A stretch of DNA of 64,000 bases, taken from Armatimonadota bacterium (GTDB lineage: Bacteria > Armatimonadota > Zipacnadia > Zipacnadales > JABUFB01). Below, piece by piece: positions 1-25,429 of this stretch (positions within the stretch are counted from its first letter, which is position 1; the number at the start of each line of letters is the position of its first letter). Location: assembly GCA_013314775.1 (NCBI GenBank), contig JABUFB010000011.1, positions 73,144 to 137,143 of the forward strand. The letters run 5' to 3'. The position numbers and the translations under genes were made by a program. The notes beneath the pieces were generated by a model. The model did not search any database. It saw nothing but the letters and a program-made list of their open reading frames with translations, and was not told where the DNA came from.

Positions 1-915
1 GATCGGCAATGCGATCTTCGCGCGCTCCAGCAGCGCATCGTTGTTTGAGATGATCGCAAGTTCCGCCCGGCGCTGTTCCAGAGCATCCACCGTCTCCAGC
101 ACCGCGCCGAATGACCGCCCGGTGGGTGCGACCACGAAACATGGGAAGCCCTCCCCCGTAGTCGCGATCGGCCCATGCATGAAATCCGCAGTGCTGAAGG
201 CCGAGGGCACTACGTAACAGCATTCGGCCATCTTCAGTGCCGCTTCTTTTGCGGTGCAGAAGTTGTAGCCTCGCGCCAGCCAGTGACAGGTCTCCATGAA
301 CCGGTAGCGCTCGGCCCGATCCGCAATGTCCTCCTGCACTCGCTCGAGAGTCATGTCGATCCAGGCCGGGACCCGCTTGATCTCGTCCGCGATGTCTTTC
401 CGGTCCGCCCAGAGGGCCGCGAGCTGGTGCATCACCGCAAGTGCGGTGGTGTAAGTCTTTGTCGCCGCCACGCTCTTTTCTTCCTGCGCATGGGTGAGCA
501 GGACGTGCTCCGCAGCCTGGCAGATGGGCGAATCCTCGGTGTTCGTGAGTGCGCAAGTGATGGCCCCGCGGCGCCTTCCGGCTTCGAGCACCTCGATCAC
601 ATCAGTAGCCTTGCCCGACTGAGAAACCCCGAGCACGAACACCTTGGTCAGGTCAATCCGGGTGTCGTAGAGCGTCAAGAGCGACGGCGCAGCGGTTGCC
701 GCGAGCTTCATGGTCACCGCGCCGAACATATATAAGCCGTAGAGGCCCGCGTTGTCGGAAGTCCCCCGCGCCACGATCAGCGCGTATTCGACACCCTCAT
801 TGCGCAGGCGGGCGGTGAGTTCCCGGATATTGCCGCCTTCAGCCGCGAGCGTAGCCTCGATGGCCGCCGGCTGTTCGCGGATCTCCCGGATCATCTGGGT
901 TCCAGGTTGCTGCAT
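1..915 (-). CDS. SIS-domain sugar-phosphate isomerase/deaminase (GlmS C-terminal-like), 3' end outside window
   Basis: 305 codons are visible with no stop before the window edge, so the C-terminus is missing. The protein starts MQQPGTQMIREIREQP, the usual opening of the isomerase half of glucosamine-6-phosphate synthase and of SIS sugar deaminases. Two SIS domains follow (about residues 35-165 and 205 onward) with the phosphosugar-binding SQSGKATDV and the EEKSVAATKTYT stretch typical of the family. No glutamine amidotransferase domain precedes the start, so it is not full-length GlmS; an AgaS/FrlB-like aldose-ketose isomerase or amino-sugar deaminase is more likely. Start: ATG at 915 with GAGGTGA about 9 bases upstream. 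larC lies just upstream on the same strand, 22 bp away. Substrate cannot be assigned. Confidence 0.85.
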   Translation of the reverse strand, partial: MQQPGTQMIREIREQPAAIEATLAAEGGNIRELTARLRNEGVEYALIVARGTSDNAGLYGLYMFGAVTMKLAATAAPSLLTLYDTRIDLTKVFVLGVSQSGKATDVIEVLEAGRRRGAITCALTNTEDSPICQAAEHVLLTHAQEEKSVAATKTYTTALAVMHQLAALWADRKDIADEIKRVPAWIDMTLERVQEDIADRAERYRFMETCHWLARGYNFCTAKEAALKMAECCYVVPSAFSTADFMHGPIATTGEGFPCFVVAPTGRSFGAVLETVDALEQRRAELAIISNNDALLERAKIALPI

Positions 916-937
916 GGTGCGTCACCTCGAGCGAACG

Positions 938-2368
<1,431 letters not shown>

Positions 2369-2409
2369 GAGTCGGGTCTCCTGTATGGGGGCTGCACGGA
2401 CGGATAACT

Positions 2410-2442
2410 ATGTTAGCACACCACGCCGATGCGGGCTATACT
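2410..2442 (+). promoter_or_regulatory. Candidate divergent promoters between larC and nfo
   Basis: On the plus strand TTAGCA (2413-2418) and TATACT (2437-2442) are 18 bases apart and precede the nfo RBS by a sensible distance. On the minus strand an extended -10-like TGCTAACAT overlaps the same bases and points to larC. Weak matches; inference only. Confidence 0.35.
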
Positions 2443-2475
2443 GGCGTATCTGCAGCCGGATCCGGGAGGCTTTCT

Positions 2476-3426
2476 GTGCGCTTCGGCTTTCACATTACAA
2501 TCGCAGGGGGCTGGAGGAAGACGATTGAGCGCGCCGTGGAGCGCCGCTGCACTGCACTCCAGGTGTTCACCAGCGCGCCTGTCCAGTGGGACCGTAAGCC
2601 TATGGACCTCGCGGGCGCGCAGTGGTTCGCCGAGACTCTCCGCGCCCTGGACATCCAGCCGCTCTTCGTCCATGCCATCTATCTGCTGAACCTTGCCACA
2701 CCCGCAGCCGTGCTGTGGCGTCGCAGCCGCGACCACCTGACCGATGAGCTTCGCCGGGCGAAGCTCATCGGCGCCCACGGAGTGGTCTTCCACCTGGGGA
2801 GCGTTGGCGCAGAAGGCAAGCCCGAGGCAGGTATGCGCAGGGTCGCACGCGCGCTGGATTGGGCGGCGGAACACACTCCGGACGGACCGCAGCTCATTTT
2901 GGAGAACAGTTCCGTCCAGGGGAACGTGGTGGGCGGCAGCGTGGAGAGCATCGCTCAGATCATTGACATGTCGCATTGCCAGGACCGCCTGAACGTCTGC
3001 ATCGACACAGCCCATGCCTTCGCCCAGGGATACCCGGTGCATGACCCGGTGGGTCTCGAGCAGTTCCTGGACCACTGCGACGCCGCTTTCGGACTGGAGC
3101 GGCTGGCGCTCATTCACGCCAATGATTCGCGGTCAGAGCTGGGGTCACACGTGGACCGTCATGCACACATCGGGAAGGGTAAAATTGGGCGCGCAGGGTT
3201 CCGGGCGATCTTGAATGAGCCGCGGCTCAGGCACTTGCCTTTCATTCTGGAGACGCCGGACCAGGAGGAGTGGCATGCGAAGGATCTGCGGGCATTGCGT
3301 TCTGTGGTGGATGCGGCAATCAGACCCGCCTTGCCCAGAATCAGGCCGGTTCCGGAGCAGCCGAAGAACTCGTCCGGCCGGGGCGGCTCGGGTCGCGCAA
3401 GAGACGCGCAGGACCGGACTGGGTGA
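2476..3426 (+). CDS. nfo: Endonuclease IV (AP endonuclease)
   Basis: Class II AP endonuclease that cuts DNA 5' of abasic sites in base-excision repair, using three zinc ions. All metal-ligand motifs can be read in order: VHAIYLLNLA, VFHLGS, LILENSS, CIDTAHAFAQGY, LIHANDS, DRHAHIGKGKIG and FILETP, matching the His, Glu and Asp ligands of E. coli Nfo. I start at GTG 2476, giving FHITIAGGW near the N-terminus with GGGAGG six bases upstream; an ATG 66 bp earlier has no RBS and adds a tail absent from the family. The last 30 residues, rich in Ser/Arg/Gly, run beyond the usual end and overlap the convergent phosphatase gene by 86 bp. Divergent from larC. Confidence 0.9.
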   Translation: MRFGFHITIAGGWRKTIERAVERRCTALQVFTSAPVQWDRKPMDLAGAQWFAETLRALDIQPLFVHAIYLLNLATPAAVLWRRSRDHLTDELRRAKLIGAHGVVFHLGSVGAEGKPEAGMRRVARALDWAAEHTPDGPQLILENSSVQGNVVGGSVESIAQIIDMSHCQDRLNVCIDTAHAFAQGYPVHDPVGLEQFLDHCDAAFGLERLALIHANDSRSELGSHVDRHAHIGKGKIGRAGFRAILNEPRLRHLPFILETPDQEEWHAKDLRALRSVVDAAIRPALPRIRPVPEQPKNSSGRGGSGRARDAQDRTG

Positions 3427-4099
3427 GCCGCGCGAAGACCGCATCGCCACCCAGGCGACGCATGGCCGCTCTTGCAGGGCTGATCACCGGCGGCCGGCGC
3501 TTCGGGTCGTGGCCGTCCGAGGCGATGAAGCTCACCAGGTCCTCGCGCAGCAGCTTCTGCGCAATTGTGCGCACCACCCGGCCCTCTTTCCCGCAGATGC
3601 TGTCCGCATTCAGCTGCAGCAAAGCGCCGCGCTGAGCGAGCTCGCGGATTATGTCCAGCCGGAGCCGCGCTGCACCGGAACGTTCCGGGTGCGCGATGAT
3701 CGGGACAAACCCCATCAGCTGCAGGTTGAAGAACAGATCGGGGACGTAATTCGGATAGCTGGAAAAGGGCAGCTCTATCAGCAGGTGCTTGCCTTTGTCC
3801 GCCAGCGTCATCACCCGTCCCGCTTCCAGGTGCTTGATGAGGTTGTCGACGCTGCTGATTTCCGCCCCGGGCAAGACGGTGATGTCAATGCCCGCGGCGT
3901 GGATGGCGTCATTCAGGACAGCCACGCGCTGGCGGATCAGCTCGGGGGTCACCACGCCTTCGTCCAGGTTCGCATGAGGTGTGGCGATGATCACGCCCAC
4001 GCCGTCCTTCGCGGCGACACGCGCCATCTCAACGCTGATCTCCAGCGTATCGGGGCCGTCATCAATTCCCGGAAGAATGTGGCAATGGGTGTCTATCAT
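3341..4099 (-). CDS. CpsB/YwqE-type PHP-domain protein-tyrosine phosphatase
   Basis: 252 residues beginning MIDTHCHILPGIDDG, the PHP metal-binding start of CpsB/CapC/YwqE phosphatases, which dephosphorylate bacterial tyrosine kinases that control capsule and exopolysaccharide chain length. Further PHP motifs are IATPHAN, the ENxHPERS-like IAHPERS and the C-terminal SDGHD. A cytoplasmic role in exopolysaccharide regulation is inferred; no partner BY-kinase is present in the window. It follows dapL on the same strand with a hairpin between. The C-terminal tail (rich in Ser, Ala and Pro) is encoded opposite the end of nfo. Confidence 0.85.
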   Translation of the reverse strand: MIDTHCHILPGIDDGPDTLEISVEMARVAAKDGVGVIIATPHANLDEGVVTPELIRQRVAVLNDAIHAAGIDITVLPGAEISSVDNLIKHLEAGRVMTLADKGKHLLIELPFSSYPNYVPDLFFNLQLMGFVPIIAHPERSGAARLRLDIIRELAQRGALLQLNADSICGKEGRVVRTIAQKLLREDLVSFIASDGHDPKRRPPVISPARAAMRRLGGDAVFARLTQSGPARLLRDPSRPGRTSSSAAPEPA

Positions 4100-4175: not shown

Positions 4176-5360
4176 TCACCAGTTGAGGCTCAGGTTCGCG
4201 CGCATGTTCTCGATGGCCGTGTTGATCTGACCAAGCTTGTCGTGGGCCTTGAGGGTCAGGGACATGCGGACAAAGCCCTCGCCGAACTCGCCGTAGACAC
4301 TGCCGGGAATTGCCAGGACCCGGCAGTCCCGCAGGAGCGCCGTGGCGAAGGTCTCGGACGTGTACCCCGGCGGCACCGGCACCCAGACATAGAAGGCTGC
4401 CCGGGGCTTTTCGAGGTTCCAGCCGAGGCTGTTGAGCCCATCGATTAGTGCATTGCGCCGGGCCTGGTATTCGCCCTGCATCTTCGGGACCCATTCCTCG
4501 AACCGGTCCAGCGCCGCGACCCCTGCCCGCTGGATGGCCATGAAGGTCCCGCTGTCCACATTGCTCTTGCACTTGGACAGGGCCTCGATGTACGGCTTGC
4601 CACCCATCGCCCAACCCACGCGCCAGCCGGTCATGTTGAAGGTTTTCGAGAGAGAATGCATCTCGATAGCAACGTCTTTGGCGCCGTCCACTTCGAGAAT
4701 GCTGTGGGGTTTGTAGCCGTCGAAGGCGACCTCGGAATAGGCGCAGTCATTGACGATAAGCAACCCGAACTCCTGGGCGAAGGCGACGGCCCGCTCGTAG
4801 AACTCCAGTGGCGCCACAGCACCCGTGGGGTTGTTCGGGTAGTTGAGGAACAGGAGCTTCGCGGCCTTTGCGACCGACCGCGGGATGGCGTCGAAGTCGG
4901 GCAGAAAGCCATTCTCGGCGCGCAGGGGCATGGGGAACGGCGCCCCGCCGCACCAGGTGGTCTGTACCTTGTAGACCGAGTACGCCGGGTCTGGCACGAG
5001 AACCACATCGCTGGGGTCGATATACGCCCAGATGATGTGCACCAGCGCCTCCTTGGAGCCGATGCAGCTCTGGATCTCCCCCTCCGGGCTGACGTCGATT
5101 CCGAACCGGCGCTTCGCGAACCTCGCGATGGCGTCCTTGTACTCAGGGGTTCCGTAACCTGTCTCATCATACGGGTGCGTGGAAGGATCCTTCGCAGCCT
5201 CGTAGAGAGCGTCGATAACAAACTGCGGCGTGGGCAGGTCGGGGTCGCCGATGCCGAAGTCGATGGGCTCCTTGCCCTCGGAAATCATGCGCGACTTCAG
5301 TTCGGCGATGGCGCGGAACGGGTACGGCGGGATGCGCTGCAAGCGCTGTGCAAGCTCCAC
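4176..5360 (-). CDS. dapL: LL-diaminopimelate aminotransferase
   Basis: PLP-dependent class I/II aminotransferase, 394 residues, converting tetrahydrodipicolinate directly to LL-diaminopimelate and so bypassing the succinylase/acetylase steps. Seen: FGIGDPDLPTP (35-45), the NYPNNPTG loop (173-180), the PLP lysine in SLSKTFNMTGWRVGW (Lys239). The overall sequence follows the DapL/MalY-like subgroup; a general aspartate or alanine aminotransferase is the alternative, but dapF immediately upstream on the same strand and dapA elsewhere in the window support DapL. Start is GTG 5360 (VELAQRL) with GGGAGGG about 8 bases upstream. A 197-bp gap with hairpins separates it from dapF. Confidence 0.85.
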   Translation of the reverse strand: MELAQRLQRIPPYPFRAIAELKSRMISEGKEPIDFGIGDPDLPTPQFVIDALYEAAKDPSTHPYDETGYGTPEYKDAIARFAKRRFGIDVSPEGEIQSCIGSKEALVHIIWAYIDPSDVVLVPDPAYSVYKVQTTWCGGAPFPMPLRAENGFLPDFDAIPRSVAKAAKLLFLNYPNNPTGAVAPLEFYERAVAFAQEFGLLIVNDCAYSEVAFDGYKPHSILEVDGAKDVAIEMHSLSKTFNMTGWRVGWAMGGKPYIEALSKCKSNVDSGTFMAIQRAGVAALDRFEEWVPKMQGEYQARRNALIDGLNSLGWNLEKPRAAFYVWVPVPPGYTSETFATALLRDCRVLAIPGSVYGEFGEGFVRMSLTLKAHDKLGQINTAIENMRANLSLNW

Positions 5361-5557
5361 AGAGTAACCCTCCCAGAATCAACAGGGCAGTCTTGGTTCG
5401 GATATTGGGTCGGCGGGAAAGCGGCCGGGGACACTGGCCGCGACACTGACGGCGTCACGCGCCCTTACTGCGCGAGCGCCAGTGGCGCCCGCGGTCCCGA
5501 CACCTCCCGGGGGTTTGCGCAGTCTGATTGTGGCGAGAGAGGGGGAGCATAGTCCGC
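5361..5557 (-). other. Intergenic region dapF-dapL with two GC-rich dyads
   Basis: Two perfect short dyads are visible: GCGGCC/GGCCGC at 5421-5441 and GCGCC-AGT-GGCGC at 5476-5488. They could end or attenuate transcription from dapF into dapL. I see no convincing promoter. Confidence 0.35.
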
Positions 5558-6424
5558 CTACTTCACGGCTTGCGCCAGGAGCTCGGGATGCACTTCACCC
5601 GAGAAAGCCTCCTCGGCCGGCCCAGTCAGGAAAATGTGATTGTTCTCGGCCCACTCGATGAACAGGTCTCCGCCTAGCAGAGACACCCGCGCCGTGCGGT
5701 CCGCAAGGTCATTGAGCACCGCGGCAACTACCGTCGCTGATGCGCCGGTGCCACAGGCAAGCGTAACGCCCGCACCCCGCTCCCACACCCGCATCTGGAT
5801 ATTCTGCCGGTCTTCAATCCTCGCGAACTCGACATTGGTCTTGCGAGGGAAGAGCGGGTGGCACTCAATCACCGGACCGAGTTCACGCACCGGGAAGCTG
5901 TCGGCATCATCCACGAAGATCACGCAGTGCGGATTGCCCATGGACACGCAGGTGATCCTCAGGTCGTAGCCATTGACTTGCAGCGGTTCGGCAATCACGG
6001 GCTGATCGGCGGGTTCACCGGTCATCGGGATCTCGGACCGCTTCAGTCTGGGTTCGCCCATGTCCACACGGATGAGGGTGACCTTGCCGTCTTCCACCGT
6101 GAGAACCGGCTTGATAATCCCCGCGTACGTCTCCACTTCCAGGGATGTTTTTTGCGTCAGCCCGTGCTCATAGACGAACTTCGCGAAGGCCCGCATACCA
6201 TTGCCGCACATCTCCGCCTCACTGCCGTCGGAGTTGTAGATGCGCATGGCGAAGTCGGCTACGTCCGACGGGCGAACGAGAATGATCCCGTCGCCGCCGA
6301 TGCCGAAATTGCGGTCGGACAGGACGCGCGAGAGCTCGGGCAGGTCGTAAGCGCTCAGGTCCTGGTTGACGGCGTCGATGTAGATGTAGTCGTTCCCAAG
6401 ACCGTGGAGCTTGGTGAAACGCAT
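5558..6424 (-). CDS. dapF: Diaminopimelate epimerase
   Basis: Converts LL- to meso-diaminopimelate, the step before lysine and peptidoglycan cross-linking, using two cysteines as acid and base without cofactor. Both are present: Cys73 in EMCGNGMRAFAKF and Cys224 in LACGTGASATV. The N-terminus MRFTKLHGLGNDYI is diagnostic, and 288 residues is a normal length. RBS GGGAGGG lies about 6 bases before ATG 6424. It sits between hfq (21 bp upstream) and dapL in the same direction, consistent with cotranscription. Confidence 0.95.
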   Translation of the reverse strand: MRFTKLHGLGNDYIYIDAVNQDLSAYDLPELSRVLSDRNFGIGGDGIILVRPSDVADFAMRIYNSDGSEAEMCGNGMRAFAKFVYEHGLTQKTSLEVETYAGIIKPVLTVEDGKVTLIRVDMGEPRLKRSEIPMTGEPADQPVIAEPLQVNGYDLRITCVSMGNPHCVIFVDDADSFPVRELGPVIECHPLFPRKTNVEFARIEDRQNIQMRVWERGAGVTLACGTGASATVVAAVLNDLADRTARVSLLGGDLFIEWAENNHIFLTGPAEEAFSGEVHPELLAQAVK

Positions 6425-6445
6425 CCGTACCCTCCCGCGACCCGG

Positions 6446-6661
6446 TCAGGGCGTGTTGGCCGGACCGATGGCAGCGATGGCGCTCTTGTAGACGAGTATG
6501 TCCATGTCCTTGACAGACACGATCAGTGTGAACGCATCAAATTGTTTGACCACACCACGCAGGTCCTTGCCATTGAGCAGACTGATGCGAACCGCGGACT
6601 TGGCATCCGCCGCGGCTTTGAGGTAGACATCCTGCACAGATCCCTTCGCGGCCAATCTCAT
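6446..6661 (-). CDS. hfq: RNA chaperone Hfq (divergent)
   Basis: 71-residue Sm-like protein that forms hexameric rings for sRNA-mRNA pairing. Seen: Gln-Asp near the N-terminus (VQDVYL), the Sm1 core SLLNGKDLRGVVKQFDAFTLIV and the Sm2 motif, here LVYKSAIAAIGP. The canonical YKHA of proteobacterial Hfq reads YKSA, so the proximal-face His (His57 in E. coli) is replaced by Ser. The hfq-miaA pairing, common in bacteria, supports the call. The start is ATG 6661, with a G-rich run immediately before it but no well-spaced SD. There is no acidic C-terminal tail. Confidence 0.88.
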   Translation of the reverse strand: MRLAAKGSVQDVYLKAAADAKSAVRISLLNGKDLRGVVKQFDAFTLIVSVKDMDILVYKSAIAAIGPANTP

Positions 6662-6676
6662 ACCCCCGTCAGTTGT

Positions 6677-7666
6677 TCACGCGCCGCTGAAACGGCGAGA
6701 TTGAGCCCCCCAAGCCAATTGAGCTCCGAGCCGACACAATTCAGCCTCAACCAGGGCGAACTCAGCATCAGTCCGCCACTCCCGCCAGACCGCGCCTTCC
6801 TCACGCCGGAACCACGTCAACTGGCGCTTGGCGAACCGGCGCGTCTCGCGCTTGATCGATGCGACGACCTGCGCAAAGCTCTCGCGCGGCCCCGGGAAGT
6901 TGAGCCACGCGAGCATCTGACGATAACCCAGAGCCTGAAGGGACGGTAGCGCGGGCTGCAACCCCCGCGCATCGATGGCACGCACTTCGTCCAGCCAGCC
7001 GTGGCTCAGCATGCGGTCGACGCGAGCGTCGATCCCTTCGTACAATGCCTCGCGCGGGCGGCTGATTACAAGATAGAGCGCATTATAATGGACCTCCGGA
7101 GTCGCGTCAACGCGCCGCTGTTCGCTGATTGCGTTCCCGGTAATCTCCAGCACTTCCAGGGCGCGCACGATGCGCTTGCTGTCAGACGGGCTGATTTCCG
7201 CTGCCGCGACTGGATCTGCCGAGGCAAGCCTTGCGTGCATCGCCTCACTGCCCAGTTGCGCCAGTTCGTCCTCAAGCCTGCGTCTCACCACCCGAGATCC
7301 TCCAGCCTGCGCCGGCGGGAAGTCGAAATGCCGTAGCAGCGCCCGGATGTACAGGCCCGTTCCACCACAGAGGATCGGCAGATTCCCGCGCCCGTAGATT
7401 TCGCGAATCGCCCGCCTCGCGTCTCTCTGGAAATCGGCCACGGTGTACGGCTGGTCCAGGTCCACACAGTCGACGAGATGGAACCGCGCCGCCCGCCGCT
7501 CCTCGGACGTCGGTTTCGCGGTTCCCACGTCCAGCCCCCGGTAGATCTGCATGGAATCGGCGGAGACTATTTCCCCGCCGACGCACCTGGCCACGCGGAT
7601 CGCGGCTTCGGTCTTTCCGGATGCCGTGGGGCCGGCGATGACCAGGAGCGGAATCACCGGAGGCAT
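6677..7666 (-). CDS. miaA: tRNA dimethylallyltransferase
   Basis: Transfers the dimethylallyl group to N6 of A37 in tRNAs that read UNN codons. The P-loop AGPTASGKT (near residue 10), SADSMQIYRGLDVGTAKP, and CGGTGLYIRALL are the MiaA signatures; QRRVD and RQLTWFRRE complete the C-terminal region. 329 residues is normal. Its ATG overlaps the mutL stop (TGATG), so the two are translationally coupled, and hfq follows 15 bp downstream: a mutL-miaA-hfq order known from many bacteria. No miaB is visible in the window. Confidence 0.95.
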   Translation of the reverse strand: MPPVIPLLVIAGPTASGKTEAAIRVARCVGGEIVSADSMQIYRGLDVGTAKPTSEERRAARFHLVDCVDLDQPYTVADFQRDARRAIREIYGRGNLPILCGGTGLYIRALLRHFDFPPAQAGGSRVVRRRLEDELAQLGSEAMHARLASADPVAAAEISPSDSKRIVRALEVLEITGNAISEQRRVDATPEVHYNALYLVISRPREALYEGIDARVDRMLSHGWLDEVRAIDARGLQPALPSLQALGYRQMLAWLNFPGPRESFAQVVASIKRETRRFAKRQLTWFRREEGAVWREWRTDAEFALVEAELCRLGAQLAWGAQSRRFSGA

Positions 7667-9534
7667 CAGGTCACGCTTCCCGGATTGCGCCGAAACTGCC
7701 GGTCCAGCCGATCCAGCCCGAAGGACACGATGATCGGGTCACCGTGAGGGCAGACGGCTGGAGCCTCGCTCTTCAGGAGATCATCCACGAGCTTCTGCAT
7801 GGCCGCTTGCCCCATCCTCTCCCCCGCCTTGAGCGCCGCGTGACAGGCGACCGTGGCCCGGAGCTTCTCCCGCCGCCGGTCAAGCGAAGGCGTGGTCTCG
7901 GCGTCGGCGAGTTCAGCGATGGCGTTGCGCAGCGTCTCAATGGGGGCCAGTTCCGCCGTGGACGCGGGCACGGAACGCACCAGGAACGCGCCGGGGCCGA
8001 AATCCTCCAGTTCGTAGCCCAGCTCACCCAGCCACTGCAGGCTGGCTCGGGCCACTTCCATCTCCCCGGGGGACAGTTGCAGCGTTTCGGGAACCACCAG
8101 CAACTGCCGGGTCACCCGCTCCGGTCTCAGGCTCTCCAGGATCACGCGCTCCGCAGCCCGGTGCTGGTCGATAAGCAGCAGACCCTCGGGCGATCGGGCC
8201 ACGATGTACCGCCCTGCAAGCTGCCCGAGCACCTCCACCTGCCCGCGCTCTGCCGCAAATTCCAGCACAGACTCCGCCGGTCCGCGTTCCGCTGGCAGGG
8301 AGATGACAGGGTCGGCGAAAACGCCAAGTCCCTCATCGCGGTCGTCCACTCGGTCCTCGAAGGGATTGACCCTGAGGCGTCGAGCCCGCATGCGCTGGTC
8401 CATGTCGCCCAGGGGTGCTCTCCCGGCGGGCAGGCCACCGCCGAACCTGTCCCCGCCGAAAGGCTCTGCTCCCGGCACGCCCAATTTGTCACCCTCTTCC
8501 GGGCGGCGATAGACGTGTCGAGTTCCCTGGCTGAGAGACCGGAACCCGGCATCCGCGAGGGCATTCTCCACCGCCGCCTGAACCAGGGAATGTACCGCGC
8601 CACCCTCGCGGAACCGCACCTCGATCTTGGTGGGATGCACGTTCGGGTCAACGCGCGTCGGCTCCACGTCGAGGTGCAGTGCACACAGAGCATGGCGACC
8701 TGCAGGAAGCAGAAGTCCGTACGCCTCGTCCAGCGCGTGACTCATCTGTCGGCTGCGCACGAATCGACGATTGACGAAAAACATCTGGTGGCTGCGGGTG
8801 CTGCGCAGCAAAGTGGGCCTGGAAACAAGCCCGTGAACCCGGACGCCGTCGCGTTCGAGTTCGACATCCAGGAAATCTCGGGCGGCGGCGCTGCCGTATA
8901 TGGTGGCGATCACCGAACGAAGATCACCAGCGCCCGATGTCGTGAAAAGGACCTCGCCATTGTGAGTGAGCTTGAAGGCAACGTCTGGTCGGGCCATGGC
9001 AAGGCGCGAGACCCAGTCGGCGCAATGCCCACGTTCCCGTGCGGTGGTTGAAAGAAACTTGGCGCGGGCCGGAGTATTGAAGAAGAGATCGGCTACCTCA
9101 ACGGTGGTGCCCGGCGGGCAGCCCACCGGGTGGACTTCGGCGTCGCTCCCGCCCTGGATCGTTACCTCGCAGCCTTCTTCACTGCCCGGTTCGCGGGACA
9201 CCAGTCGAAACCGGGAGACCGCCGCGATACTGGGGAGCGCTTCGCCCCTGAAACCCATGGTCTGAATGGCGTCCAGGTCATCTGCGTCCGCGATCTTGCT
9301 GGTAGCGAAACGCTGCACCGCAAGACGCGCATCCTCGGCGGACATGCCGTGGCCGTCGTCGGTAACGCGGATCAGACCCCGGCCGCCATCCACCAGTTCG
9401 ACTTCGACCCTCCGCGCTCCGGCATCCACGGAATTCTCCACCAGCTCCTTGACCACGCTGGCAGGACGTTCCACCACCTCACCGGCGGCGATGCGGTTGG
9501 CGAGTGCCTCGCTGAGTACCCTTACGTGAGCCAT
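7666..9534 (-). CDS. mutL: DNA mismatch repair protein MutL (endonuclease type)
   Basis: 622-residue GHKL ATPase that couples mismatch recognition to strand incision. N-terminal motifs: AAGEVVERPASVVKELVENS, DDGHGM and GFRGEALPSIAAV. The C-terminal part keeps the metal-dependent nicking motif as DQHRAAERVILE (family pattern DQHA-x2-E-x4-E) and the Zn-site CPHGDP, so this MutL probably carries endonuclease activity, as expected where MutH is absent. MutS is not in the window. It is preceded 20 bp upstream by the glycyl radical enzyme gene on the same strand, an unusual partner, and followed by miaA with overlapping stop/start. Confidence 0.95.
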   Translation of the reverse strand: MAHVRVLSEALANRIAAGEVVERPASVVKELVENSVDAGARRVEVELVDGGRGLIRVTDDGHGMSAEDARLAVQRFATSKIADADDLDAIQTMGFRGEALPSIAAVSRFRLVSREPGSEEGCEVTIQGGSDAEVHPVGCPPGTTVEVADLFFNTPARAKFLSTTARERGHCADWVSRLAMARPDVAFKLTHNGEVLFTTSGAGDLRSVIATIYGSAAARDFLDVELERDGVRVHGLVSRPTLLRSTRSHQMFFVNRRFVRSRQMSHALDEAYGLLLPAGRHALCALHLDVEPTRVDPNVHPTKIEVRFREGGAVHSLVQAAVENALADAGFRSLSQGTRHVYRRPEEGDKLGVPGAEPFGGDRFGGGLPAGRAPLGDMDQRMRARRLRVNPFEDRVDDRDEGLGVFADPVISLPAERGPAESVLEFAAERGQVEVLGQLAGRYIVARSPEGLLLIDQHRAAERVILESLRPERVTRQLLVVPETLQLSPGEMEVARASLQWLGELGYELEDFGPGAFLVRSVPASTAELAPIETLRNAIAELADAETTPSLDRRREKLRATVACHAALKAGERMGQAAMQKLVDDLLKSEAPAVCPHGDPIIVSFGLDRLDRQFRRNPGSVT

Positions 9535-9554
9535 TATCTTTCAGTTGCGCATGC

Positions 9555-11714
9555 CTACAGGCCCTGCGCTGTTCGCTCGATGAGATCGTCCTGAATATGT
9601 CTTGGAAGGGTCACGAAGTACGCGCTCAAGCCGGAAATGCGCACCATCAGGTCCCGGTGGCGCTCCGGATGGGTCTGGGCGTCGCGCAATGTGTCGCTGT
9701 CCACGACATTCAGCATCACGTGGGAGCCGCCCTGCTCGAAGTAGGTGCGGATCAGCTGCAGCACCCGCTCCAGGCCGTCGTCACCCGCGACATGATCCGG
9801 CGCCAGGGAGATGTTCAGGAAATTGCCATTGGGCGCAAGATGATGCGGCAGCTTCGCGCAGGAGGCGAGGGTCGCGGTGATGCCGAGCTCATTGCAGCCC
9901 GGCGTCGGCCCGACGCCCACTGAAAAGTTGGCCCCTGCCCGGCGACCGTCCGGCGTGGCTCCCACGTCTCGCCCCCGGTAATGCTGTTGGTACATGGCCA
10001 GTGAGGGCTTGATGCGCCCACCCCGGGCATTACGGTGTTTCGTGGCCTCCGCACAGAAGAACGCGCACAGATCGGCCGCCAATGCATCCACTTCCGCCGA
10101 ATCATTGCCGAACTTGGGCGCACCGTGTACCAGCAGGGCCCGCAGGTCCTCACTGCCCTCGAAGTCGTCCCGCAGCGCCGAAAGCAACTGTTCAACGCTT
10201 ACCGAACGGTCCTGGTACACGAGAGTCCGGGCAGCCTGCAGCGAGTCTACCGCGGTGGCCAGACAGCCGGGCCAGCAGGCGCTGAAATTGTACCGCGCTC
10301 CACCGGCGTATATGTCGGTACCGGTCCCGATGCAGTCCCGCATCAGGACCGACTGGAACGGCGAGGGCGCCCACTGGGCCTCAAAGCACTCGTGTTCGTT
10401 GGCCCGTGAGACCACCTGTTCGATGTCGCGCGCGAGCTCGGCACGGGTCAGCTCCAGCAGGTCACCGAAGGATTCCGGGCGGGTCTCCAGGGCGCGCAGC
10501 ACGCACTCCGGCAGAGAGGCTCCTCCGGCCACCGTGCGTCCCCATTCAGCTCCCGCAACCACCGCCTCATAGCAGCCGACGATGGCCCAGTCCCAGGATT
10601 CCTCCGCCGGGACGCCGATGCTCTCCAAGCCCGCCCGCACCACCGGGTCATTGAAGAACGAGGGCTGCCCAAGGCCCTTCCCGGCCAGCCGCGCGGCGGC
10701 CTTCAGGTACTCCTGCGGCGAACCTGGATGCACTCGCACAGATACCGAAGGCTGGAAAGCCTCCAATTCATCGGTGAGCTCAATCATCCACAGCGTGAGT
10801 TCGTTGGTGACGTCTCGCCCGTCGGCGTCCACGCCCCCGATGGTGACATTCTGGGACTCGTCGCCCTCCCAGAACTTCAGCCACAGACACGCCAGAAGCT
10901 CCCGCGCTTCCTCGCGCGTGATACGCCCGGCCGCGAGGTCATCTCGGTAGAACCGATAGAGATACTGATCCAGCCGGCCAGGTGAGACCGCCACCGAGGG
11001 TGACTCCACGTGCAGCAGCAAATGCAGGAACCAGAAGGATTGCACTGCCTCGCGGAAGCTGCGTGCGGGTTGCCAGGGGACGCGCTCGCACGTGTCGGCG
11101 ATTGTGAGCAGTTCGGCCCGTCGAACAGGGTCGTTTTCGCTTTCAGCGCGGTCGCGGATCTGCCGGGCGTGATGGAGTGCGAAGTCGCGGGCGGCTTCGC
11201 AGGTGATCTTCATCGCCCGCCACTCGGAGAGTGCGGATGACCCCCGATCACACGGTCCCATCAGCGCATCTATCCTCGCAACCTGCGCGCAAAGGCCTTC
11301 GTCGAGGATGCGCGGATAATCGCAGACCATGTGGCCTTCCCCAAAATGGATGCCCAGTTCGCTCCGGGCCTGGTCGATGGCCGCACTGCGCGCGTCCTGC
11401 TCGGGGCTGGTGACCGAGCGTGCGCCTCTCTGCCAGATGTTCCCCCGCTGGCTGCCTGCGATAAGCTCGCCGGGCCGCAGGGCGGTCACCCAGTCCCGGC
11501 AGATTCGCGCGAAGGCCTTCGCGCGCCGCAGGACCATCTCTTCGCCCACGGTCTCCCGGTATGAGGCGACGCGGAGTTCCTCCTTGCCCAGGTACTCCTC
11601 AGCATCGAATGCGAACCGGAGCACCCGGTGGCCGGAGTCATCGCACATCGACCGCGTGAGGGCCTCGCGCAGTGCACAGACTCGCCGAGTCAATGCCCCG
11701 ATCTCAGCCGCCAT
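9555..11714 (-). CDS. Glycyl radical enzyme (pyruvate formate-lyase family), substrate unknown
   Basis: 719 residues with the two signatures of oxygen-sensitive glycyl radical enzymes: the active-site Cys381-x-Glu383 in AIVGCYEAVVAG, and the radical-bearing Gly695 in VRISGLSAYFVTL near the C-terminus. It is closer to the dehydratase/decarboxylase branch (GCxE) than to true PFL (tandem CC). The protein is a little shorter than most members (about 780-850). A radical-SAM activating enzyme is required for function and none is visible in the window. The FAD oxidoreductase gene ends 3 bp before its start, so the two probably act together. Substrate cannot be told from sequence; anaerobic or microaerobic metabolism is implied. 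Confidence 0.88.
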   Translation of the reverse strand: MAAEIGALTRRVCALREALTRSMCDDSGHRVLRFAFDAEEYLGKEELRVASYRETVGEEMVLRRAKAFARICRDWVTALRPGELIAGSQRGNIWQRGARSVTSPEQDARSAAIDQARSELGIHFGEGHMVCDYPRILDEGLCAQVARIDALMGPCDRGSSALSEWRAMKITCEAARDFALHHARQIRDRAESENDPVRRAELLTIADTCERVPWQPARSFREAVQSFWFLHLLLHVESPSVAVSPGRLDQYLYRFYRDDLAAGRITREEARELLACLWLKFWEGDESQNVTIGGVDADGRDVTNELTLWMIELTDELEAFQPSVSVRVHPGSPQEYLKAAARLAGKGLGQPSFFNDPVVRAGLESIGVPAEESWDWAIVGCYEAVVAGAEWGRTVAGGASLPECVLRALETRPESFGDLLELTRAELARDIEQVVSRANEHECFEAQWAPSPFQSVLMRDCIGTGTDIYAGGARYNFSACWPGCLATAVDSLQAARTLVYQDRSVSVEQLLSALRDDFEGSEDLRALLVHGAPKFGNDSAEVDALAADLCAFFCAEATKHRNARGGRIKPSLAMYQQHYRGRDVGATPDGRRAGANFSVGVGPTPGCNELGITATLASCAKLPHHLAPNGNFLNISLAPDHVAGDDGLERVLQLIRTYFEQGGSHVMLNVVDSDTLRDAQTHPERHRDLMVRISGLSAYFVTLPRHIQDDLIERTAQGL

Positions 11715-11717
11715 CGC

Positions 11718-13046
11718 TCACGTCTCCTCCGGTGCATGAACGTTGGCTCCGTTCTCGCGCAGGGCGGCCAGGAGCAGATCGGAACTCAGGGCTCTCGGCG
11801 TCACCCCATGCCGCACGCACAGGGCCGCCGCAACCCCCGCCGCTTCCCCCATTGCACGGCAGGTGGCCTCAATGCGGATCGCGGCTTGAGCTTCAAAAGT
11901 CGCCGAAATGCAGCGCCCTGCAACCAGCAAGTTGTCGACGCACAGCGGCACCAGGCAGCGGTACGGGATCTCATGGTACTCGCCGGGCCCCAGGCGCTCC
12001 AGGGTCACGCCCACGCCCGAAGGGTTGTGGATGTCGATGGGGTAACACGACTTGGCGATCCCATCCTCAAACTTCCGGGCCTGCCGGAAATCCTCGGCGC
12101 TGAGCACATACTCGCCCACAATGCGCCGGCTCTCGCGGATGCCCACCATGGGCGCGGTCTGGGCGAGATACGCGTCATCAAAACCATCCAGGTAGCGCCG
12201 GCAGAACTCCATGATGCGCGGGATAATCCTGCGACCCTGCACCTGGGCGCGGGTAAGGTCCTCGTCGCGGGCGCCATTGACGTGGGTGATCCGGGGACAG
12301 TTGAAGCCAAGCTCGCCGGGCCGTCCGGGAATGGTGAAGAACTGGATATACCCGCCCTCTTCGGCGGTGAACACCCCGTCCTGCTCGGCCTGCTCCATGA
12401 GCGCGCCCAGGCCCTTGTCTCCCACGCCACCTTTCGCAAAGCCCCAGCCGAATCGCGGCGGGTGTGCATCGAGACCGCCCTTTTCGCGCAGGAACGCGGC
12501 CAGACGTTCCAGGTCCACCCCGCCCACGGTGAATCGCAGGCTGGCCGACTGGTTCAGACCATCTTCCGGCCGTCCGCTCTCGAAGGGGGCCCCTGACAGG
12601 TACGCCACGTCGGCATCGCCGGTGCAGTCGATGAACTGCTTCGCTTCCAGTTCCCGCCTGCCCGACTTTCCCGCCACCTCGATGGACCGCAGAGCGCCAT
12701 TGCGCACGGTCGCGCCGATGATGTACGTATGGTAGGACAGGTCGCACCCTGCCTCGAGCACCATCTCCTCGAGCACGTACTTGAGCAGCTCGGGGTTGAA
12801 AAACATGCCCTCATTGTCGCCGGGAAGATCGTTGCAGCGCTGATTGATCTCCTCGCAGATGCCCAGCACCAGCTTCTCGCCGCCGGTGGAATAGCTCATA
12901 AGGGGCAATACGAGAGCAGCGGTCTGGCTGCCGCCGAGGAAGCCGAACTGCTCGACGATCAGGGTCTTCACACCGCGCCTGGCCGCCGCAATCGCCGCCA
13001 CTGAACCCGCAGTTCCCCCGCCGCAGACGATGACATCGTAGGACAT
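11718..13046 (-). CDS. FAD-dependent oxidoreductase (FAD_oxidored/PF12831 type)
   Basis: 442 residues. The N-terminus MSYDVIVCGGGTAG has the Rossmann GxGxxG dinucleotide site, followed by VKTLIVEQFGFLGG with the acidic end of the second strand. FIDCTGDADVAYL and the C-terminal NLLVAGRCISATFEA are typical of the PF12831 group that is common in Planctomycetes- and Armatimonadetes-like genomes and is poorly characterised. I start at ATG 13046, with GGGAGA upstream; the frame stays open 186 bp further but that part covers the promoter. It directly precedes the glycyl radical enzyme, suggesting one catabolic step each on the same substrate (inference). Confidence 0.8.
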   Translation of the reverse strand: MSYDVIVCGGGTAGSVAAIAAARRGVKTLIVEQFGFLGGSQTAALVLPLMSYSTGGEKLVLGICEEINQRCNDLPGDNEGMFFNPELLKYVLEEMVLEAGCDLSYHTYIIGATVRNGALRSIEVAGKSGRRELEAKQFIDCTGDADVAYLSGAPFESGRPEDGLNQSASLRFTVGGVDLERLAAFLREKGGLDAHPPRFGWGFAKGGVGDKGLGALMEQAEQDGVFTAEEGGYIQFFTIPGRPGELGFNCPRITHVNGARDEDLTRAQVQGRRIIPRIMEFCRRYLDGFDDAYLAQTAPMVGIRESRRIVGEYVLSAEDFRQARKFEDGIAKSCYPIDIHNPSGVGVTLERLGPGEYHEIPYRCLVPLCVDNLLVAGRCISATFEAQAAIRIEATCRAMGEAAGVAAALCVRHGVTPRALSSDLLLAALRENGANVHAPEET

Positions 13047-13210: not shown

Positions 13211-14026
13211 GTGACACGCTACATTGCCGCATATGACACCGAGGCCATTGACCACGAACTCGAAGCCGTCCCGGTTCTCGTGGCCCTGCACCGCAAGTAT
13301 GAGATCCCTGCGACCTTCTTCATCGTGGGGAAGCTCCTGGAACGCGACGGGCCAAGGTACCGAGAGATCCTGGACGACCCGCTATTCGATGTGCAGTCTC
13401 ACAGCTACTCCCACCAGATGCTCAAGGACAGCCGCCCCCACGGGCCGGCGGTGAGTCTGGAGCAGATGGACGAGGAAGTGGGCCGGGGCAAGCAACTCGT
13501 GGAGGACGTGTTCGAGCGCGAATGTATCGGATTCCGGCCCGGCTGCGGGTTCGAAGGCGGGTTCAGCGGGGTCCCGGACCGGCTGGAGATCCTCCGCAGG
13601 CACGGTATTCGGTTCGTCAGCGCCGACCTGCGCGGGCCGCTGGACTCCATCCCGAACCCACTCAAGCAGGCGTACACCCACGAGCCCGACGGGTACCCGG
13701 ACATCACGGAAATCCCAGGTCATGGGTGGCACGATAATGTGCTGAAGGGCTGGACGGGGCATATCACCTATTTCCCGCCGGTCTACGACTTCGCGATGCC
13801 GCCTGGCCAGCCGCGCACGGTGGTGGAAGTCTTCGCGCAAGAGGGCCGCTGGATCGAACACGCACTGGAGACCGGCGCGGAGTACGTCTCGCTCGTGCAG
13901 CATCCCTGGTCTATTATGCGCTTTGACGCGGCGATGGCTCCCATCGAACTGCTCCTGGTTCGCGTCAAGCAGCTCGGCATGCCGTGCATGACTTACCTGG
14001 ACTACTACCGGGAACTCACGGCCTGA
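13211..14026 (+). CDS. Polysaccharide deacetylase (NodB-like)
   Basis: 271 residues of the carbohydrate esterase 4 fold. Motif 1, usually TFDD, reads AAYDTEAID (one Asp kept); motif 2 is HSYSH (64-68), supplying two metal-ligand His; motif 3 is GFRPGCGF. There is no signal peptide, so it may act on a cytoplasmic sugar or nucleotide-linked substrate rather than on cell wall. It resembles the HpPgdA/allantoinase-like branch that lacks a secretion signal. Start is GTG 13211, with GGAGGGG 7 bases upstream. The Mrp ATPase gene starts 37 bp after it on the same strand. Confidence 0.82.
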   Translation: MTRYIAAYDTEAIDHELEAVPVLVALHRKYEIPATFFIVGKLLERDGPRYREILDDPLFDVQSHSYSHQMLKDSRPHGPAVSLEQMDEEVGRGKQLVEDVFERECIGFRPGCGFEGGFSGVPDRLEILRRHGIRFVSADLRGPLDSIPNPLKQAYTHEPDGYPDITEIPGHGWHDNVLKGWTGHITYFPPVYDFAMPPGQPRTVVEVFAQEGRWIEHALETGAEYVSLVQHPWSIMRFDAAMAPIELLLVRVKQLGMPCMTYLDYYRELTA

Positions 14027-23002: not shown

Positions 23003-25429
23003 ATGCGCCTGCGCAATGTCACCCTGGAAATGAGTCTCAAACCCTTCAAGGACACCAGCGAAGCCACAGCCCGCATGGTCTGTCGCGACCTGTTCCGGCA
23101 ATGGTGGCCACTTATCAAGCACGCCGATCAAGTCTCCGTTTTGCTATGGTGCGCGGACGGTTCCGAGATCCTGGAGTACAAGGGCGACCTGACAGAGCCC
23201 TTCGAGTGGGCACGGTACATCGGCGGCGCTAATCCCAGGGCTCACGTCCCGAATGACCCCGAGGGCATTGCGCTTCACAGCCGCCCTTACCTGTACATGG
23301 ACAACCCGCCGGAGTTCACCTACGGCTGGCTCAAGCGTCTGCTGGCCATCATCAAGGAGGAGGGACGCATGGTCACCGGGCGTCCGGTGCGAGTGGGCGA
23401 GACCTTTGATCCGGGCCCGGAATTCGCGAAGTCAGCCTTCAAGTACGAGAGGCACCCTGAGATCTGCCTGGGCGAGACCATGGGTGCAAAGAGCTTCGTC
23501 TGCTCGTACGCCACCCTCCATGCCGATGCACAGAGTTACGCTGGGTTCCCCGAAGGCATCCCGGAAGGCACGCCCTTTGGAGTATTCCTGGGGCGCCAGG
23601 CAAAGCAATTCTGCGACGACCTCGGCTTCGACTACCTGTGGCTCTCCAATGGTTTCGGCTTTGGTCTGGAGCCCTGGGCGTTGCGTGGCGCGGTGTTCGA
23701 CGGACAATCCTTCAACAGCGCCCGGGTCGATGAGGTGAAGCGGCTCAGTCTGGATTTCTGGAACCTGTTTCGGCGGGAGTGCCCGGACCTTCCCCTGGAG
23801 ACCCGCGGCACCAATCTCTCCACCGGCATGGACCTGGCCTCCGACGCCGTTCCCCTGCGCGACATCTACGAAGGGGGGTATGGGATGGAGCCGCCGCCGA
23901 ACTCGCCCTGGGCCGCACTCAACCACGATTTCGGGCTGGAACTGGTGGGATGGATGTCGCATATTGCCGAGATACCCGGCGAGACTTTCCCATTCCGCTT
24001 TTACACCCACGATCCGTGGTGGCTCAACAGCCCGTGGCTCGACCGCTATGGCCGCGAGCCACAGGACATCTACATGCCCCTGTCCGTGGCGCGCATTGAC
24101 GCGTACGGCAACATCTGCAACCCCTCGTCGGTGTTGTTGCTCACAGCCGATGACTCCTATGGCAACCTGCCCGACCAGGTGCCCAATGAGGTTATCCCCC
24201 ACATTCTCTCAGGGCTGCGCGAAGCCCCTGATGCCGCCGGTCCGCTGGTCTGGGTCTACCCTTTCGATGAGTACCACGACCGCACATTCAGCCGCGACCC
24301 GCGGATAGATGAGGTCTTTTTCGGCGACTGGTTTATGCGCGGAGCGGTCAATAGCGGCCTGCCCCTGAACACGGTGATTAGCACCCGCGCCCTGCCCGGC
24401 GTGATAGAGAGCAGCCCCGAGCTGCTGGGCGAGAGTATCCTGGTCAGCCCGGTGCCCGACGCCCACAGCGCGTGGGAGGACGCACTTTTCACTCACCTCG
24501 GCAACGGCGGCCGTGCGCTCTTGTATGGCCCGGCGACATATGCAAGCAACAACCTGCTTGACCTGCTTGGCATTGACCTCGCCGAACCGCTCAGTGGCGA
24601 GTTCGAACTGAACGAGACGCTGAGCGCCGATCTGCTGGTGGACGACTACCCGAAGCGTCTCACCCATCCCGGACTTCTCTCTGCGGGCGGAATCCGCGAA
24701 ACCCCGCGCAAGGGCTCTGGCGGGCACCACGTGCTCCTGCGACAGGACAATGAAACGCGCGTGGCTGTCGCGCAGCCCCTCGGCCCGGGGGGCACAGGGC
24801 AACTGGTCTGGTTGCGTGGAACGGTCTCCTGTGATCCGGCGAAAATGCGAGGCCATCTCCTGGTGCCATTCGACCCATCTGAGCATTTCCCCGCGGAGGC
24901 TCTGGCTCGGTTCGCCCTGCGCTTCCTGGGCTATGACCTCATCCAGGATAAGCGCTCGCCGCGGCAGGCCTCGCCGATGCTCACCATCGCCAGACACGCC
25001 AATGCGTTCTTCCTATCGGGGTACTGTCCGGACAGCACAGTCCGGCAGATCTTCCGGTTTCCAGCCGGCGCGCCCCTCCTCCTGGGAATGCAGACCTGGC
25101 TTGAGGACGGACGCTCCACGTATACCCTGCCGCCAAGCTGGCGTCGCGAATGCCGGGTGTTCGTGGAGCAACAGGCCGGCCTGGTCTCCTGCCGCGAGGA
25201 GCATTCGGGCGCCATCGGCATCAAGCGCCGCATGCGACTGTCAGGCCTGGAGAGCGCTACCGTCCGTTTTCTCCCGGAGCCCGGTACCGAGGCGAAGGTC
25301 ACCTTCCTGCGGGACCCGCAGCACCCGTACGTTCTCGGCGACTACATTGAGCCCGAACTGGTGCATGACTGGCGCGGGCGCTTTCTCGAAGTGCCCAATA
25401 TCACGGGCGAACTGCTCATCTCCTGGTAG
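23003..25429 (+). CDS. Unrecognised 808-residue protein, glycoside-hydrolase-like layout
   Basis: I do not recognise the family. There is no signal peptide. The first half (WYs and acidic motifs such as LYMDNPPEFTYGWLKRLL, GFDYLWLSNGFGFGLEPW, FRFYTHDPWW) reads like a TIM-barrel sugar hydrolase; the middle (GESILVSPVPDAHSAWEDALFTHL, GGRALLYGPATYASNNLLDLLG) resembles the class I glutamine-amidotransferase-like domain found behind the barrel in GH42-type enzymes; the end looks like beta-sandwich. Catalytic residues cannot be named with confidence. A terminator precedes the gene, and an arabinose-isomerase-like gene starts 14 bp after it, so a role in use of a sugar or polysaccharide is likely (inference). 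Start ATG 23003, weak RBS. Confidence 0.75.
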   Translation: MRLRNVTLEMSLKPFKDTSEATARMVCRDLFRQWWPLIKHADQVSVLLWCADGSEILEYKGDLTEPFEWARYIGGANPRAHVPNDPEGIALHSRPYLYMDNPPEFTYGWLKRLLAIIKEEGRMVTGRPVRVGETFDPGPEFAKSAFKYERHPEICLGETMGAKSFVCSYATLHADAQSYAGFPEGIPEGTPFGVFLGRQAKQFCDDLGFDYLWLSNGFGFGLEPWALRGAVFDGQSFNSARVDEVKRLSLDFWNLFRRECPDLPLETRGTNLSTGMDLASDAVPLRDIYEGGYGMEPPPNSPWAALNHDFGLELVGWMSHIAEIPGETFPFRFYTHDPWWLNSPWLDRYGREPQDIYMPLSVARIDAYGNICNPSSVLLLTADDSYGNLPDQVPNEVIPHILSGLREAPDAAGPLVWVYPFDEYHDRTFSRDPRIDEVFFGDWFMRGAVNSGLPLNTVISTRALPGVIESSPELLGESILVSPVPDAHSAWEDALFTHLGNGGRALLYGPATYASNNLLDLLGIDLAEPLSGEFELNETLSADLLVDDYPKRLTHPGLLSAGGIRETPRKGSGGHHVLLRQDNETRVAVAQPLGPGGTGQLVWLRGTVSCDPAKMRGHLLVPFDPSEHFPAEALARFALRFLGYDLIQDKRSPRQASPMLTIARHANAFFLSGYCPDSTVRQIFRFPAGAPLLLGMQTWLEDGRSTYTLPPSWRRECRVFVEQQAGLVSCREEHSGAIGIKRRMRLSGLESATVRFLPEPGTEAKVTFLRDPQHPYVLGDYIEPELVHDWRGRFLEVPNITGELLISW

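Follow-up and report, generated by a model that had tools for sequence, protein, structure and literature searches.

The glycyl radical enzyme (GRE) gene at 9555..11714 on the minus strand of the window, the 64-kb stretch of DNA analysed here from contig C11 of the genome of an uncultured Armatimonadota bacterium (G000; 6.12 Mb in 37 contigs, 98.46% complete), is in our judgement rather likely to encode a functional, uncharacterised enzyme of the eliminase type, whose radical would be installed in trans by a single activase encoded on contig C8 and serving all nine GREs of the genome; the flavoprotein encoded next to it would not be its pathway partner.

The GRE (719 aa, PFL-like/eliminase type) is part of a minus-strand series of genes that runs from a PF12831 FAD-dependent oxidoreductase (the flavoprotein; 11718..13046, 442 aa, full-length match at E 2.7e-115) through the GRE to mutL (7666..9534; profile match and sequence), miaA (6677..7666; PF01715), hfq (6446..6661; PF17209) and dapF (5558..6424; PF01678), and a polysaccharide deacetylase gene (13211..14026, plus strand; PF01522 and synteny) is divergent to the flavoprotein gene. 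The gaps around the GRE, read from the sequence, are 3 nt on the flavoprotein side and 20 nt on the side of mutL, which lies downstream. The first-pass annotation had described the PF12831 oxidoreductase as the nearest neighbour across a 3-bp gap and mutL-miaA-hfq-dapF as the adjoining genes; the gap was confirmed in the sequence and all four genes by profile matches. The adjacency to mutL was also borne out, as the GRE-mutL-miaA order is common to two genera of the family (represented by G254 and G256) and is retained in the second genus at 64% GRE identity, with a GRE-mutL gap of 7 nt in G256. A promoter and terminator scan gave no signal above shuffled sequences, with no terminator-like site in the GRE-mutL gap, and transcription of the GRE probably continues into mutL-miaA-hfq-dapF. 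This synteny does not imply a regulatory tie between the GRE and mismatch repair, since mutL in G255 does without a GRE upstream. An Rfam scan returned no match, and every match in a plasmid comparison was below 60% identity. Elsewhere in the window, a 6-bp repeat of 31.7 copies (1939-2128) encodes a His-Glu run of more than 60 residues inside a nickel insertion protein of the LarC type (PF01969; 938-2368, minus strand), and an 808-aa open reading frame with a strong codon score (23003-25429, plus strand) had no Pfam match at E 0.001.

The GRE matched PF02901 (E 2.7e-132, 443 bits) and PF01228 (E 2.5e-25, 89.5 bits), and its start is backed by the first 26 residues, which are identical in a relative. 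Both catalytic signatures named in the first-pass annotation, Cys381-x-Glu383 and Gly695, proved to be in register with glycerol dehydratase, Cys381, Glu383 and Gly695 each falling opposite the corresponding catalytic residue of that enzyme (C381 = C433, G695 = G763). Specifically, the Cys loop motif Cys381-Tyr382-Glu383 (10566..10574, minus strand) carries the Cys-x-Glu feature of GRE-eliminases, the next residue being Ala384 in place of Pro436 of glycerol dehydratase; the radical-bearing Gly695 (9630..9632, minus strand) lies in VRISGLSAYF; and His128 (11331..11333, minus strand) aligns with His164 of glycerol dehydratase and His160 of HypD. The His, the Cys-x-Glu and the Gly are all retained among GRE orthologues down to 64% identity. 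Between genus mates (the window genome and G254) dN/dS was 0.105 for the GRE, indicating purifying selection, and 0.034 for the flavoprotein, indicating strong constraint, so that both appear to be maintained genes. AlphaFold models of both proteins, built from two-row alignments, had pLDDT values of 38 and 35, too low for use.

The GRE fingerprint, stated as RVXG[FWY] in PMC11528403, is not matched by the window GRE, which like both its orthologues reads RISGL. The residue following the radical Gly is Leu in these three proteins and Phe or Tyr in the 35 other GREs scored (42 rows, four of which were dropped as not representing the glycyl site), and a further paralogue with RISGW was seen in a separate alignment. 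The assignment to the PFL-like GRE family, made on sequence, is kept despite this departure because the V position of the fingerprint varies in other members too. With RISGL, recognition by a shared activase is not assured.

The first-pass annotation had further suggested that the GRE and the flavoprotein may together carry out a new anaerobic step. In such a two-enzyme step the flavoprotein would reduce or oxidise the GRE product. The 3-nt gap on the same strand in both genomes of the genus and the strong constraint on the FAD gene would fit such a step, but the comparison of genomes makes it unlikely. The two genes are adjacent in just two of the three genomes with this GRE (the window genome and G254), both from one genus (g1). 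In G256, the GRE abuts mutL, and the flavoprotein is not encoded in the ~600 nt that lie between the GRE and the contig end upstream of it, its orthologue being on a different contig beside a divergent deacetylase and mrp; in G255, the flavoprotein (76%) is beside the deacetylase and this GRE is absent. No GRE match at E 1e-8 was obtained in regions of 4-11 kb surrounding the flavoprotein orthologue of ten further genomes (G255, G256, G258, G257, G275, G274, G252, G251, G248 and G021, all of which hold the flavoprotein, some of the regions reaching a contig end). PF12831 neighbours are moreover common, as the window genome has 15 strong PF12831 proteins. The flavoprotein shows full-length likeness to PF12831 oxidoreductases, and in other genera no GRE is linked to its orthologues; in a PDB search only its nucleotide-binding end matched chains and no close solved relative was found. 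The deacetylase is beside the flavoprotein in G254, G255 and G256, and this synteny, together with the ten regions lacking a GRE match, identifies the deacetylase as the conserved partner of the flavoprotein within the family and mutL as that of the GRE. The FAD-GRE pair was therefore rejected as a conserved unit; the flavoprotein is probably a lineage-specific neighbour whose pairing with the GRE is incidental.

The best solved relatives of the GRE were diol and glycerol dehydratases (E 1.5e-115 and 2.7e-112). With glycerol dehydratase of Clostridium butyricum (PDB 1r8w/1r9d) and diol dehydratase 5i2a it shares the fold family, the Cys-x-Glu, the His164 equivalent and the radical Gly; it differs from glycerol dehydratase in an 11-residue deletion before beta 3, in the glycyl motif (RVAGY in glycerol dehydratase, RISGL here), in the absence of a linked activase and in the pocket. 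His281, Ser282 and Asp447 of glycerol dehydratase, residues of the substrate pocket, are not retained in the GRE, nor are Phe333 and Tyr339: in the alignment His281, Ser282, Phe333 and Tyr339 correspond to Val241, Ala242, a deletion and Ser287, and Asp447 to Val395 (MAFFT) or Arg393 (phmmer), an uncertain site. This loss of diol-pocket residues argues against glycerol or propanediol as the substrate. HypD (trans-4-hydroxy-L-proline dehydratase, PDB 6vxc) likewise shares the Cys-x-Glu and the His160 equivalent, whereas its Asp278, Ser334, Asp339 and Phe340 are replaced in the GRE by Val241, a deletion, Glu286 and Ser287, the roles of these HypD residues and of His160 being taken from PMC7077986.

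None of the NCBIfam cut-offs was passed by the GRE and no curated equivalog was matched. The best score was for the PFL2/glycerol dehydratase subfamily TIGR01774 (472 vs a cut-off of 678 bits); others were HypD NF043068 (391 vs 1100 bits), choline TMA-lyase CutC TIGR04394 (317 vs 1050 bits) and pyruvate formate-lyase TIGR01255 (109 vs 994 bits). CutC was also rejected on the beta 1 site, which is His128 in the GRE and not Asp216, and isethionate sulfite-lyase on the same site, where Gln193 would be expected (the equivalence of Asp216 and Gln193 following PMC8473560). HypD, CutC, glycerol dehydratase, PFL and sulfopropanediol dehydratase were thus all set aside by curated score or by residues.

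Besides the window genome, only G254 (91%) and G256 (64%) among 291 Armatimonadota genomes hold this GRE at more than 42% identity. In a 41-row tree, in which glycerol dehydratase and HypD were the references and other characterised GREs were covered by the NCBIfam scores alone, these three GREs formed a fully supported clade, joined at 100/98 by a GRE of G005 (37% identity, long branch) and placed apart from the glycerol dehydratase/HypD branch. The first-pass annotation had named clear clustering with a known subgroup as what would count against its view of the enzyme, and no such clustering was seen among the references tested. In the same tree, 11 other Armatimonadota GREs (L032, L036, L037, L040-L044 and L049-L051) grouped with HypD at 100/100, and hydroxyproline dehydratase-like enzymes seem, from this placement, to be common in the phylum. 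That the window protein is itself a glycerol/propanediol or hydroxyproline dehydratase with a shifted substrate would agree with its closest solved relatives and with the shared CxE and His128, but is improbable, even more so than a two-enzyme step, given that most pocket residues of both enzymes are replaced or deleted, that the HypD score is far below its cut-off and that the tree sets the protein with the G005 GRE. It is best read as an oxygen-sensitive GRE of the eliminase type from a small uncharacterised branch.

The first-pass annotation had reported no activating radical-SAM gene within 64 kb, and this holds for the window, which is on C11. The search of the whole genome that it suggested scored all 56 candidates and returned one TIGR02494 activase above cut-off, on contig C8 (G000 C8:869536-870402), in which the CxxxCxxC motif and the two cluster motifs of ferredoxin type are intact. 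The term orphan is thus apt for the window, where no activase is linked to the GRE, and not for the genome; the idea that the organism lacks an activase was rejected. TIGR02494 also picks up distant relatives (20 hits in this genome), the remaining hits were below 48 bits and the top two of these are AmmeMemoRadiSam enzymes. The C8 activase gene is flanked by a GFO/IDH/MocA oxidoreductase on one side and by a small gene and then carbamoyl-phosphate synthase on the other; of the nine PF01228 GRE domains of the genome, the closest is about 142 kb away.

The neighbourhoods of the GREs in this genome are varied and point to no common pathway; one on C4 ends 338 nt from the contig end, so that an activase gene next to it might have gone unseen. 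A GRE on C4 (L055, region 339-3783), with Cys-His-Glu-Pro, is directly downstream of a protein with a PF09861 lactate racemase N-terminal domain and also near a DUF2961 protein. Two others are on C8: one (L054, region 5000-9634) is flanked on both sides by URO-D domain proteins (PF01208), possibly a methyl-transfer context, and one (L053, 4810-8265) has a long N-terminal extension (ORF of ~1150 aa) and adjoins a sulfatase gene and a beta-helix protein. A GRE on C24 (L058, 5172-7319) has Cys-Met-Gly and no eliminase Glu of the Cys-x-Glu.

The analysis was extended to the 291 Armatimonadota genomes, most of which look like draft assemblies. A GRE domain was present in 91 and an activase in 88 (up to seven activase candidates being scored per genome, and all candidates in the window genome and in 13 re-searched genomes); 85 genomes had both, six a GRE only and three an activase only (Fisher p 6e-62, shared ancestry ignored). 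GRE domains outnumbered activases in 50 of the 85 genomes with both, and among the 59 of these with exactly one activase, 29 had one GRE domain and 30 had two to 13. Thirteen genomes, picked for having many GREs and one activase and thus illustrating the pattern rather than sampling it, were searched again and contained 110 GRE domains (seven covering fewer than 80 of the 106 model positions, and one with an in-frame stop) against 13 activases above cut-off, all with intact cluster motifs, and one truncated fragment. In five of them (G034, G178, G204, G209 and G238) one GRE domain lay no farther than about 0.6 kb from the activase; in G256 only the truncated fragment was near a GRE domain, and in the remaining seven no GRE domain was near the activase. 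GREs and activase are therefore tied by presence and mostly not by position, as a shared activase predicts. Least probable of the readings considered is that every GRE is served by a separate activase that TIGR02494 fails to recognise, or that the window GRE is not radical-active, which the Leu after the radical glycine, the unlinked activase and the paralogue lacking the Glu of CxE might suggest, but against which stand the reach of TIGR02494 to distant relatives, the AmmeMemoRadiSam identity of the two best sub-threshold hits, the mere six of 91 GRE genomes devoid of a TIGR02494 activase and the catalytic residues retained at 64% identity.

The window GRE is, on these comparisons, probably activated in trans by the shared activase. 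The radical-SAM enzyme of C8, acting as a generalist, would install the radical on Gly695 and would also activate the other eight GREs of the genome. The Gly695 radical would then generate a thiyl radical on Cys381, which would abstract hydrogen from a hydroxylated substrate, while Glu383, probably with His128, would handle proton transfer so that the leaving group is expelled in a 1,2-elimination. The order of radical transfer, from Gly radical to Cys thiyl to H abstraction, is established for the GRE family (PMC7077986 and PMC8473560).

GREs are usually described with a dedicated, neighbouring activase (PMC11528403). A known case of an activase shared between glycyl radical proteins is E. 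coli PflA, which serves PflB and GrcA (PMC12338860 for GrcA). The clients of PflA are few and closely related, whereas those considered here are nine divergent enzymes, and in relatives one activase goes with as many as 13 GRE domains. TdcE is a further client of E. coli PflA. In searches of open-licence papers no report of a shared GRE activase was found among the matches listed, and no paper was found on GREs in Armatimonadetes or PFL in Armatimonadota, co-mentions of glycyl radical and armatimonad terms excepted.

We regard as evenly poised the wider proposal that one generalist radical-SAM activase in Armatimonadota serves a whole divergent GRE repertoire, of nine enzymes here and as many as 13 GRE domains in relatives, whose genes are dispersed over the genome and lack the customary operon with the activase, the window GRE being an extreme client with its new clade, non-aromatic residue after the radical Gly and emptied diol pocket. 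The part worth following is the occurrence of many GREs per single activase. If the proposal is true, activase specificity would be directly testable within one organism, unlinked GREs should be labelled orphans only with caution, and the pattern would suggest a reservoir of uncharacterised anaerobic chemistry.
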